Shown: positions 25,502 to 29,162 of the stretch, piece after piece
Layout: the number at the start of each line of letters is the position of its first letter
Numbering within the stretch: the stretch's first letter is position 1
NCBI RefSeq assembly: GCF_009177065.1
Contig: NZ_WEZF01000018.1
Location: 62,001-126,000, forward strand
Direction: 5' to 3'
DNA from: Tautonia marina
GTDB lineage: Bacteria > Planctomycetota > Planctomycetia > Isosphaerales > Isosphaeraceae
DNA length: 64,000 bases
Translations under genes and position numbers: made by a program
Notes under the pieces: model-generated
The model's input: the letters and a program-made list of their open reading frames with translations, nothing else
Database searches by the model: none
What the model was told of the DNA's origin: nothing

Positions 25502-25634
25502 GAGGGGGTCCGGGTGAGTCGGGGGGGACCCGAGCAATTGAGGCGCGTGAACCTGGTCAGGGCGGGAACGCAGCAGCCATAAGCGTGACCTCGATGTGCC
25601 CGGGAGCACCTCCCCGGCTCTCCCGGCCTCCTTC
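25502..25634 (+). ncRNA. ffs: Signal recognition particle RNA (4.5S-type)
   Basis: Contains the conserved SRP domain IV core: GTGAACCTGGTCAGG (asymmetric-loop side, near 25546-25561), GGGAACGCAGCAGCC (25564-25578) and AAGCGTGACCTC. The flanks pair: CCGGGTGAG (25510-25518) with CTCTCCCGG (25618-25626), then GGGG with CCCC closer to the apex, giving a long hairpin of the small bacterial SRP RNA type. Ends are approximate; outer pairing weakens past 25502/25634. It lies directly upstream of dnaX, a frequent bacterial arrangement. It binds Ffh for co-translational targeting. Confidence 0.92.
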
Positions 25635-25803: not shown

Positions 25804-27777
25804 GTGGCACGGACCAAACCCAGCGCCCCGGACCCTTCGACCGACTCTCCGAGCGTGGAGACGCTCTCCGTCGCCCCAAGGCGGGAGGGAGAGGCGTACA
25901 CGGTCGTGGCTCGCCGCTACCGACCGCAACGGTTCGAGGATGTGGTCGGGCAAGATCACGTGGTTCGGGCCTTGCGCAACGCGATCCGGATGGATCGGGT
26001 GGCCCAGGCGTATCTGTTTAGCGGCACCCGAGGGGTCGGCAAGACCTCGATGGCCCGGATCTTCGCCAAGGCGCTCAACTGCGAGCGGGGCGGGCCGACG
26101 GAAACCCCGTGCAATGAATGCGACACCTGCCGGGCGATCGCCCTGGGGCAGGATGTGGACGTGATCGAGATCGACGGGGCGAGCAACAACGGCGTCGAGG
26201 CCGTGCGCGAGCTTCGCCAGAACGCCGGATTGCGGCCGAGCCGATCGCGGTTCAAGATTTACTATATTGACGAAGTGCATATGCTTTCGACCAGCGCCTT
26301 CAACGCCCTGTTGAAGACCTTGGAGGAGCCGCCGAGCCACGTCAAGTTCGTCTTCGCCACGACCGAGCCGAACAAGATTCCGATTACCGTCTTGTCGCGC
26401 TGCCAGCGGTTCGACTTTGCCGGGATCGGACCGGAACAGATCGTCGATCAACTGGCGAGCATCTGTGAGCGCGAGGGGATCAAGGCCGATCGGGAGGCGT
26501 TGCACGTCGTCGCCCGTCGCGCGGCCGGTTCGATGCGGGATGCGCAGTCGTTGCTCGAACAGTTGCTCTCATCGGGGGCCGAGCATCTGACGGCCGACCG
26601 GGTGCATGAGCTGCTCGGGATTGCCGGGGATGACCGGGTCTTGAATCTGCTCGACGCGCTGGCGGATCGATCGCCGGGCCGGGCACTGGAGATTCTTGAT
26701 CAGGCGGTCAACGACGGCGTGCAGCCGACCGACGTCTTGAATGCGTCGATCGAGTTTTTACGAGACGTGATGGTCGTCGCCGCTGGAGCCGAAGTCGCCC
26801 CCCTGGCAGCCTTGCCGGGTCAGCGGGAGCAACTGGACGGGCTGGCCGGGCGCTGGACGCTCGACTCGGTGATCGCCGCGCAACAGATCCTGGCCGAAAC
26901 CCGAGGCAGGCTGAGGGGCAGTCCGTTCCCGAGGCTGCTGGTCGAGCTGGCCTTCTGCCGGGTCGCTCGCCTGGAGAACCTGACGGAGTTGAGCGAGGTG
27001 ATCGCCCGGCTCTCGGGGCAGGAAGCCGGGGCGCCCCCTCCCGGGCCGGATGGTGCTGTAAAAAAAAAGTCCGTTGAGCCGCTAAGCAAGGCGGCTCAAC
27101 GGTCGTCGGGATCGTCAGCATCGGAGGCGAAGACCGCGGCCGAGCCTGCGGCACCGGCCCCGAGGCCAACTCCGGTGAGTGAGCCCTCCACGCACCTCGG
27201 CAATGGGAACGGCAAGCATCGGGGACACGCCGAGGAGGTGGTCGAACGGCCTCTCCCCCCTGCCCCAGAGGGCCGGCACGAGCCGGAGCGATCGCCGTCT
27301 GTAACCGCAACCCAAAGCGGGGACGGGTCGTTGCTGGAGCGTGCCCGATCGGCCTGGCAATCGCTCGTCGATCGGACCGAGGAATTGAAGCTGCCGGCGC
27401 AGTTCAAACGACTGGAACCGTCGGATGTCTCGGAATCGGGACTGGTGGTCGTGGCCGTGCCACCGGCCTACAACTATCTGGCCGATCGCTGCAATGCTCC
27501 CGAGCTGCGGTCGAAGATCGAGGGGCATCTGGCCGAAGCACTGGGCCGGGGCGTCTCGGTCCAGTTCCATCGGGAAGCGTCGACCGCTCCCGAGCCGAGC
27601 GTCATCGAGCCCGGCTCGTCGGCGCATCAGGCCGTGCTGGAGGATGATCTGGCCCAGCAGCTTGTCGCCCGGTTCGAGGCCCAGTTGCGGCGGGTCGAGG
27701 TGGAACCGGAACGCCGAGCCGGGTCCGAGACCGACTCCGAACCTGACTCGGAGGCCGGAGCCGAGGCCGACGACTGA
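25804..27777 (+). CDS. dnaX: DNA polymerase III subunits tau/gamma
   Basis: 657 residues (GTG start at 25804). Clamp-loader ATPase: RYRPQRFEDVVGQDHVV, Walker A GTRGVGKT (74-81), four-Cys zinc module around CNECDTC, Walker B YYIDEVHM, sensor SRCQRFDF; AAA+ lid and domain III to about 400. Then a Pro/Ser/Ala-rich linker and a C-terminal region (from about 500) including the tau-type domain LKLPAQFKRLEPSDVSESG that contacts polymerase or helicase partners in the family. Residues 420-422 are the KKK encoded by an A9 run; alternative decoding would yield a 424-residue gamma-like form (see the frameshift element). Upstream ffs and downstream ybaB-recR match the conserved order. Confidence 0.97.
   Translation: MARTKPSAPDPSTDSPSVETLSVAPRREGEAYTVVARRYRPQRFEDVVGQDHVVRALRNAIRMDRVAQAYLFSGTRGVGKTSMARIFAKALNCERGGPTETPCNECDTCRAIALGQDVDVIEIDGASNNGVEAVRELRQNAGLRPSRSRFKIYYIDEVHMLSTSAFNALLKTLEEPPSHVKFVFATTEPNKIPITVLSRCQRFDFAGIGPEQIVDQLASICEREGIKADREALHVVARRAAGSMRDAQSLLEQLLSSGAEHLTADRVHELLGIAGDDRVLNLLDALADRSPGRALEILDQAVNDGVQPTDVLNASIEFLRDVMVVAAGAEVAPLAALPGQREQLDGLAGRWTLDSVIAAQQILAETRGRLRGSPFPRLLVELAFCRVARLENLTELSEVIARLSGQEAGAPPPGPDGAVKKKSVEPLSKAAQRSSGSSASEAKTAAEPAAPAPRPTPVSEPSTHLGNGNGKHRGHAEEVVERPLPPAPEGRHEPERSPSVTATQSGDGSLLERARSAWQSLVDRTEELKLPAQFKRLEPSDVSESGLVVVAVPPAYNYLADRCNAPELRSKIEGHLAEALGRGVSVQFHREASTAPEPSVIEPGSSAHQAVLEDDLAQQLVARFEAQLRRVEVEPERRAGSETDSEPDSEAGAEADD
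27060..27102 (+). promoter_or_regulatory. Slippery A9G sequence with hairpin inside dnaX (recoding signal)
   Basis: Nine A (27060-27068) then G, in frame as GTA AAA AAA AAG, contain the X-XXY-YYZ heptamer A-AAA-AAG. A perfect 12-bp hairpin (CCGTTGAGCCGC, 27071-27082, with 27091-27102; 8-nt loop) follows after 1 nt. Reading -1 gives GTC CGT TGA with the stop at 27075-27077; reading +1 stops at TAA 27083-27085. Both are within a few codons, as expected for programmed release of a gamma form. The 1-nt spacer is shorter than the usual 5-8 nt for ribosomal -1 frameshifting, so RNA polymerase slippage on A9, as known in Thermus dnaX, is an alternative. Confidence 0.75.
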
Positions 27778-27889
27778 CGAACCGACTCCGAAGGTTCCTG
27801 GAGCGGCGCATCGCGTCGTTTCTCGTCGCCATTCTCTGGCTCCTTATCGTTTTCTGATGGATTCAATCGACCTGCGAGGAGGAGACGAG

Positions 27890-28237
27890 ATGTTCGGGAA
27901 CCTTGGCAATCTTGCCGACCTGATGCGCAACGCCGGAAAGATCCGGGAACAGATGGAACAGGCCGCCGAGCAGCTCGGCTCGGTTCAGGTGGAAGGCTCG
28001 GCCGGCGGGGGAGTCGTCAAGGCGACCGTCAATGGTCGGATGGAACTGATTTCGGTGCGGATCGATCCGAAACTGACCACCGACGGTGATGTCGAGCTGC
28101 TGGAAGACCTGGTGACCAGCGCAGTCAACCAGGCCATGAATCGGGCTCGGGAGGAAGCGGCGAAAACGATGACCGGCGGCATGGGCCTGAACATGCCGGG
28201 GCTCGACTCGCTGTTTCCCGGAGGAGGCCGACCGTGA
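27890..28237 (+). CDS. ybaB: YbaB/EbfC-family nucleoid-associated protein
   Basis: 115 residues from ATG 27890 (MFGNLGNLADLMRNAGKI), preceded by GAGGAGG. The frame is open upstream inside dnaX but that part is unrelated. It has the family core: N-terminal helix, AGGGVVKATVNGRMELISVRIDP, and a C-terminal helix with NQAMNRAREEAAKTM. Family members bind DNA non-specifically as dimers (family knowledge). Lies between dnaX and recR, overlapping recR by 4 bp (GTGA), so translational coupling is likely. Confidence 0.94.
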   Translation: MFGNLGNLADLMRNAGKIREQMEQAAEQLGSVQVEGSAGGGVVKATVNGRMELISVRIDPKLTTDGDVELLEDLVTSAVNQAMNRAREEAAKTMTGGMGLNMPGLDSLFPGGGRP

Positions 28238-28875
28238 GCGCCCGCGGTTTCGGCGACCCGGTTCCGGTTGATCCGAGCGCCTCGGGAACGGTCGATCGCC
28301 TGGTCCGAGCGCTCGGCCGGTTGCCTGGGATCGGAGCCAAGAGCGCCGAGCGGCTGGCCCACCACCTGATCCGATGCCCGCTTGAGGATGCCATCGCCCT
28401 GGCCGAGGCGATCCGGGCGGCGCGCGATCAGATTCATCACTGCGCGCTTTGCGGGCATCTGACCGAGTCAGGACAGGACCGCTGCTCCATCTGCCGAGAC
28501 CCGAGGCGTGATGAGGGCCTGGTCTGCGTGGTCGAACAGTCGCGCGATTTGATGGCGCTGGAGAAGGCCGGAACCTACAACGGGCGCTACCACGTTTTGC
28601 ACGGCCGGCTGGCCCCGTTGCAAGGGGTCTTCGAAGATCAGTTGAATCTGGCCGGCCTGGAACAGCGGGTCCGAGCGGGGGGAATTCGGGAGGTGATTCT
28701 GGCCACGAACCCGACGCTCGAGGGCGACGCGACCGCGCGGCTAGTGGCCGATCGGCTCGGGCCGTTCGACGTGCCCATCACCCGACTGGCCCGAGGGCTC
28801 GCCTCGGGCGGCTCGCTGGAGTTCGCCAACAAGGAGATGCTGGCCGACGCCCTGCAGGGCCGTCAGCAGTATTGA
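28234..28875 (+). CDS. recR: Recombination mediator protein RecR
   Basis: 213 residues, GTG start overlapping the ybaB stop. N-terminal helix-hairpin-helix (LVRALGRLPGIGAKSAERLAHHLI), four-Cys zinc finger (CALCGHL...CSIC), a Toprim domain with VVEQSRDLMALEK and HVLHGRLAPLQG, and the C-terminal Walker B-like ITRLARGLASGG. Works with RecF/RecO to load RecA on gapped DNA. Length and motif order match the family exactly; it closes the ffs-dnaX-ybaB-recR block. Confidence 0.97.
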   Translation: MSARGFGDPVPVDPSASGTVDRLVRALGRLPGIGAKSAERLAHHLIRCPLEDAIALAEAIRAARDQIHHCALCGHLTESGQDRCSICRDPRRDEGLVCVVEQSRDLMALEKAGTYNGRYHVLHGRLAPLQGVFEDQLNLAGLEQRVRAGGIREVILATNPTLEGDATARLVADRLGPFDVPITRLARGLASGGSLEFANKEMLADALQGRQQY

Positions 28876-29162
28876 TCGCGGACGAGGGGTAGGAGCGAGG
28901 CCCTTCGCGTCGTGCCGGGTCAGCGCGACCGGCCCGAGCCGTTGCGAAATCACCCGGAACTTTCGGGATCGCAGAGAACTGCCCTCCCGTTCCACGGCAG
29001 TCGATGGTATGATTTTTGCTGTTCGATGTTCCTCAACGCCAGAGATGCTGGTCGTCGGCGGTTCGGTCGTTGGCAGGGATGGCGCCAGGGGCCATCCTGA
29101 ATTGCCCAGGAACCGGATCAGGGACGATTTGCCCCGGGACACTTCGCGGAAGCTCAACGCGT

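Follow-up and report, generated by a model that had tools for sequence, protein, structure and literature searches.

A conserved A9/A10 run in dnaX of Tautonia marina and its relatives as a probable signal for a short clamp-loader subunit made by transcriptional slippage

The dnaX locus and its A-run

The window, i.e. the whole stretch of 64,000 nt that was analysed, carries a dnaX gene followed downstream by ybaB/ebfC and recR (Table 1), and a small SRP RNA gene (25521-25618, plus strand; RF00169, 66 bits) lies immediately upstream of dnaX. The Pfam domains of the product are delta'/AAA, the lid and domain III (PF12169, residues 262-402), and the reading frame passes through nine consecutive A's at codon 419 of 657, 13 codons after the alignment to domain III ends. 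A preliminary description of this DNA had reported the A9 as lying in frame as GTA AAA AAA AAG, with immediate stops in both other frames and a product of 424 residues ending in KKKVR after a -1 shift, all of which the sequence and the computed translations bear out: an mRNA with A9 gives the protein of 657 aa, one with A10 a protein of 424 aa ending in KKKVR, and one with A8 a protein of 426 aa ending in KKSPLSR. E. coli gamma has 431 residues. Elsewhere in the window gene, lysine is encoded by AAG 12 times and by AAA twice, and the 7.07-Mb genome holds 16 distinct runs of A9 or longer (18 matches, two of the runs being A10).

The run is followed by G27069 and T27070 and then by a perfect 12-bp stem with an 8-nt loop, so that the hairpin starts 2 nt past the last A, as had been described. 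RNAfold adds one U-G pair (13 pairs in total), the z-score over 101 nt is -3.46, and the 45-nt fold at the site has -27.4 kcal/mol. Perfect stems of at least 12 bp (loop 3-10) occur at five places in the window, against none in nine and one in one of 10 Markov shuffles; the other places are 10986, 14342, 20455 and 62796.

Table 1. Features of the dnaX region in the window and the second A9 gene elsewhere in the genome
Feature	Position	Strand	Support or remark
dnaX, full-length tau-like product of 657 aa	25804..27777	+	TIGR02397, 438.9 bits (cut-off 250)
A9 slippery run, in-frame GTA AAA AAA AAG	27060..27068	+	sequence
Hairpin left arm, 12-bp stem	27071..27082	+	-1 stop lies within it; identical in congener G041
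TGA stop of the -1 frame (read with one A added)	27075..27077	+	6 nt after the run; 424-aa product
TAA stop of the +1 frame (read with one A lost)	27083..27085	+	14 nt after the run; 426-aa product
Hairpin right arm	27091..27102	+	missing from congener G041
Hairpin then T9, intrinsic-terminator-like in form	27060..27102	-	
ybaB/ebfC, downstream of dnaX	27890..28237	+	PF02575, 92.9 bits
recR, downstream of ybaB/ebfC	28234..28875	+	TIGR00615, 215.9 bits
Second A9 recoding candidate, TPR/Gly-Met-rich ORF	G000:C2:223317-223325 (L159:1518; L333:2417)		567-codon open frame (L333)

Conservation of the run and of the stops behind it

The distribution of the run was followed in the family, the class, for which we infer the name Planctomycetia as well as the meaning of the family codes used below, and the phylum. 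The class sample comprised 93 evenly drawn genomes at least 90 % complete, 92 of them with dnaX (G015 had no match). Within 90 codons of the end of domain III, a search found A9 in 44 of these genes, A10 in 23, A8 in one, A7 in one and no run in 23, i.e. A9 or A10 soon after domain III in 67/92, the median distance being 27 codons (range 8 to 60), where run lengths from draft or MAG assemblies may contain errors. For Isosphaeraceae (45 genomes with 43 dnaX loci, none in G014 and G015), 41 linkers were assessable once L040 and L044 had been left out, and 10 of these have A9, 20 have A10 (30 in total) and 11 have no run; L044, outside this count, shows GGA AAA AAA AAG. The family and class counts are not independent because 23 Isosphaeraceae belong to both samples, and the Isosphaeraceae label, like the titles of L045-L124, comes from the sequence records. 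The phylum sample comprised 109 genomes at least 85 % complete, 105 with a match, and the fragment G071 was left out. Among its 97 dnaX loci from outside the class, some of which end early, only six carry A9 or longer within 90 codons, one of them A11.

The nearest congener, G041, also has the run, as A9. On a quick tree, in which gain and loss are indistinguishable, 15 changes of presence and 12 changes between A9 and A10 are needed. Genus g18 is instructive in that five of its six genomes are without a run within 90 codons, and all five retain one to three lysine codons at the site (for example AAG AAG AAG, AAG AAA AAG or AAA AAG AAG), which leaves room for a role at the protein level. Considering that 23/92 genes of the class sample are without a run, the short product would in those organisms be dispensable or made otherwise. 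Outside the class, the dnaX frames of L186, L193, L202, L216, L218 and others end 11-18 codons after domain III; an A-run was sought in such short zero-frame genes and not found, and they are either gamma-only genes or unrecognised frameshift genes.

Runs in the class sample start in any of the three codon phases. The last codon of the 67 runs is AAC in 21, AAG in 15, AAA in 11, ACG and AAT in seven each, AGT in four, and ACA and ACT in one each, and the peptide encoded by the run over 42 genera is KKK, KKN, KKS or KKT, with KKK frequent. Runs shorter than nine make up only 2/69 of the class-sample runs of seven or more. Since phase, last codon and residues vary while the length hardly does, selection probably acts on the length of the run and not on the protein. 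Outside the GC-rich members codon bias by itself argues little, because lysine codons outside the run number 336 AAA and 432 AAG across the 42 genera.

Stops in the shifted frames were counted in one genome per genus for the 42 genera with a run, with other positions of the same linkers as the null. A -1 stop within 18 nt of the run is present in 36/42 genera (null 0.21), a +1 stop in 34/42 (null 0.18), and stops in both shifted frames in 29/42 (null 0.039). The observed counts for the -1 frame, the +1 frame or both were reached in 0/5000 simulations, and at arbitrary places in linkers that have no run both stops are found in 1 %.

In some relatives the layout is reversed. L067 and L078 (titled Pirellulales and Rhodopirellula) have A10 followed by a zero-frame stop, with the tau C-terminus in the -1 frame and with 55-58 % identity of this part to one-frame relatives; their long product therefore needs a shift. 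L182 and L232, from outside the class, likewise have A10 and a zero-frame stop, and in all four loci the -1 frame stays open for 455-644 nt past that stop. The shifted frame of L182 matches tau weakly (seven matches, best 8e-6), and that of L232 gave no tau match in the same search. Homopolymer errors in MAGs could mimic such a layout, against which the agreement of separate loci argues. Taken together, the comparison shows a site that has apparently persisted in evolution while run length, phase and the product that is read in the zero frame changed.

Probable transcriptional slippage and its alternatives

The dnaX system described here is of a known kind; new are its class-wide members. According to the excerpts of PMC1088944 and PMC5009743, dnaX of Thermus thermophilus slips on A9, so that about half of the product is short, and the run lies seven-eighths through the gene (PMC1088944). 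The window gene shares with it the sense-strand A9, the nearby stops in the other frames and tau in one open frame; it differs in the position of the run (codon 419 of 657), in the frequent A10 of its relatives and in the hairpin that follows the run in this species, and slippage is here predicted. The excerpt of PMC3711429 describes two-ORF dnaX genes of Chlorobi and others (a GeneTack cluster), in which A10 is present in 9/17 and tau requires a shift. This is the layout of L067, L078, L182 and L232, with tau clear only in the first two, whereas in the window gene tau is read in the zero frame and it is the short product that would need a shift. In the papers searched for planctomycete dnaX slippage or programmed frameshifting, only PMC3711429 was found, whose nine figure species, as far as its excerpt goes, may include a planctomycete; titles and abstract openings returned for Isosphaera and frameshift held nothing related.

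The preliminary description had proposed a programmed recoding that yields a gamma-like DnaX. With the run in 67/92 genes and both stops in 29/42 genera, the comparison strongly supports this claim, and we regard programmed recoding in dnaX as highly probable on these sequence patterns. One gene very probably makes both a long and a short clamp-loader subunit. To transcriptional slippage as the main mechanism, towards which the same description leaned, we assign a probability of roughly 0.8. RNA polymerase would slip on the A9, giving mRNAs whose run is longer or shorter than nine A's. Those with A9, or with A9 plus or minus multiples of three, would be translated normally into the 657-aa tau-like DnaX, and those one A longer or shorter would run into a stop within 6 or 14 nt and give a gamma-like protein of 424 or 426 aa, which would retain domains I-III without the C-terminal tau portion. 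The stops in both frames fit slippage because a +1 stop is useless to -1 ribosomal frameshifting and useful to slippage in either direction. Slippage also fits a run that is independent of phase and has neither a conserved structure nor a Shine-Dalgarno pattern, and on these patterns it appears strongly supported as the better mechanism; that slippage takes place in this organism, how often it does so and what the short product is for are what we infer from them.

The hairpin, which had been presented as a defining part of the signal, does not hold up as such. A stem of this length stands near the run at only one of 139 distinct dnaX sites with A9 or longer (79 A9, 59 A10 and one A11), and the next longest perfect stem is 8 bp (two sites). 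When run and hairpin are compared in close relatives, a check that had been suggested from the outset, the run is conserved and the hairpin is not, its right arm being absent in G041. Compared with other windows of the linkers, the 45 nt that follow the run tend to fold slightly less (mean z +0.45 over 41 genera); z falls below -2 in two genera, i.e. -3.6 in the window, which is the extreme, and -2.36 in L268. Fairly stable 45-nt folds at L100 (-26.4), L069 (-26.3), L094 (-24.3), L268 (-22.4) and L114 (-21.7) are imperfect and differ in structure from that of the window. On the single site, the missing right arm and the mean z, the hairpin was rejected as a conserved recoding stimulator. It was also rejected as a repeated or mobile element, occurring at one place in the genome, and an Rfam scan of 26900-27300 gave no match.

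The linker around the right arm is hypervariable (one 36-column block of the congener alignment has identity 0.19), so this arm may be neutral. At a guess, it may have arisen by a template switch, in a linker too diverged to show its origin. Because it lies 3' of the run and is still untranscribed while the polymerase is on the run, the hairpin cannot stimulate slippage. The Roseiflexus IS630 element, as described in the excerpt of PMC5009743, resembles the dnaX site in having a hairpin beside a slippage motif and a terminator-like look, but its stem-loop-dependent slippage relies on a nascent-RNA hairpin located 5' of the motif; in the sense transcript of dnaX the hairpin is 3', where no such action is possible. 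On the sequences compared, the dnaX hairpin is an incidental feature or a late add-on seen in this species only. Any contribution of it here is doubtful and would not go beyond ribosome pausing or -1 frameshifting.

Such a contribution defines the alternative that survives best, i.e. a mixed, species-specific element in which a new hairpin joins an older slippage run, adds ribosome pausing or -1 frameshifting and raises the short:long ratio. Run and left arm are common to G041 and the right arm is not, and the hairpin is found at one place in the genome, both of which agree with such a history. The stem begins 10 nt past the first base of the P-site AAA (27061-27063), and the stems that pause ribosomes in the excerpt of PMC7282821 lie 11-12 nt from that base; the spacing here is, however, one nucleotide below the tested range, and the right arm with its hypervariable surroundings may be neutral. 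We consider a mixed element rather unlikely; since it overlaps the slippage reading, our confidences in the two do not sum to one.

Ribosomal -1 frameshifting of the E. coli type, on A_AAA_AAG or A_AAA_AAA and stimulated by the hairpin, would also give the 424-aa gamma-like product. The window gene has, like E. coli dnaX, the efficient heptamer A_AAA_AAG in frame, a downstream hairpin, whose 45-nt fold is strong, and an immediate -1 stop, the TGA at 27075. The 1-nt spacer that had been held against standard frameshifting is correct for A_AAA_AAG only; for the overlapping A_AAA_AAA (27060-27066) the spacer is 4 nt, which is near the 5-nt linker AGUGA given for E. coli dnaX in the excerpt of PMC7282821. 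Fairly stable folds follow the run at some other sites, and this mechanism is formally possible throughout, because every A9 or A10 run in any phase holds an in-frame A_AAA_AAA. The wider comparison nevertheless speaks against it. Unlike E. coli dnaX, the window gene has no Shine-Dalgarno-like stimulator (AGGA, GGAG and GAGG were sought 4-18 nt upstream of the run and not found), and over 42 genera such motifs show no excess upstream of the runs (5/42 against a background of 13 %). Further differences are that the hairpin is not conserved, being confined to one of 139 sites and absent in G041, that the +1 stop is conserved as strongly as the -1 stop, and that the runs measure 9-10 A's: hardly any are shorter, though seven would suffice, and only the 15 mentioned above end in AAG. 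The Rfam scan, again, gave no match. Ribosomal frameshifting as the main mechanism is therefore improbable.

On the complementary strand the element was said to resemble an intrinsic terminator, which is borne out in form only, as a GC-rich hairpin followed by T9. A role in ending antisense transcription would fit this form, it is the sole terminator-like site in 26500-28900, and two pairs of loci, L158/L398 and L166/L403, share the hairpin-then-T9 form, both kept in the congener. However, one terminator-like site per region is what shuffling gives (average 1.0), the minus-strand ORFs here overlap dnaX with none supported as a gene, and the run is common to the congener while the hairpin is not; a scan of 26500-28900 for sigma-70-like promoters on either strand found none. 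We hold an antisense terminator to be very improbable. Scarcely credible is, finally, that chance or the need for a lysine-rich peptide preserves the run, without recoding: KKK is frequent across the run and the run-less g18 genomes keep lysine codons at the site, but the residues vary (KKN, KKS, KKT) while nucleotide length is kept, stops in both frames are far above expectation, and two-ORF relatives exist.

A second gene with an A9 run

The other 15 runs of A9 or longer in the genome were read for open frames and also matched with 3-kb segments surrounding the A9+ runs of G041. Four sites are common to the two genomes, i.e. dnaX, a TPR/Gly-Met-rich gene, L158 and L166.

The TPR gene was searched in 45 Isosphaeraceae genomes, 44 of which gave a match, and 30 loci were read (L333-L362). 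In 29/30 the run is exactly A9, its first base 14 or 16 nt ahead of the stop, and in those 29 the -1 frame is open for 415-481 codons beyond the run. Counted over the 240 nt that follow the run, stops average 2.28 in the zero frame and 2.03 in the +1 frame with no locus stop-free, and the -1 frame has none in 29/29. In L356 the run is A10 and both parts of the gene stand in one frame of 1057 aa, the second part being matched at 1e-155. Further, partly overlapping Isosphaeraceae loci (L363-L378) have A9 in 15/16, the one without it being L374, a second copy in G035. In the class search, 31 of 68 genomes gave a match and 14 loci from other families were read: eight in f3, f61 and f63 have both parts in one ORF without a run of A8 or longer, those of family f2 (L382, L383 and L385) have A9 with the second part in the -1 frame, and in L380, L381 and L392 the second part was not found in the stretch covered. 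Structure prediction for the second part is confident at residues 77-424, with a helical region and a beta domain (mean pLDDT 78.7); the best PDB structure matches are TPR proteins at low coverage, and a Pfam scan of the 379-aa second part gave no match. The frame arrangement supports a probable use of A9 for recoding in this lineage, and -1 ribosomal frameshifting could give the same TPR fusion.

At L158 (~1450-1491) and L398, a hairpin then T9 follows a 466-codon plus-strand frame and is conserved in the congener; this element is probably a gene-end intrinsic terminator. At L166 (1475-1510) and L403, a GC-rich inverted repeat, CCCGGTCCC...GGGACCGGG, comes after A9 and is also conserved in the congener, so that the minus strand reads hairpin then T9, the same architecture as in the dnaX element; an Rfam scan of the L166 element gave no match. 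Since the congener keeps both forms, hairpin-plus-T9 terminators are likely in the genus.

It is tempting to regard A9/A10 slippage as a standing device of the class that sets product ratios in at least two unrelated genes (dnaX and the TPR gene with its second half of roughly 450 aa), joined in this species by a ribosome-coupling hairpin in dnaX, and we consider the chances of this wider view to be even. If the dnaX reading is true, slippage in this gene, experimentally shown for Thermus, would extend to the majority of those sampled in a bacterial class. The long-debated role of the gamma-like subunit could then be tested on close relatives that differ in having the run, as genus g18 includes both kinds. 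The TPR gene, in turn, points to a further protein for which this A9 signal is used and which annotation frame by frame would split.
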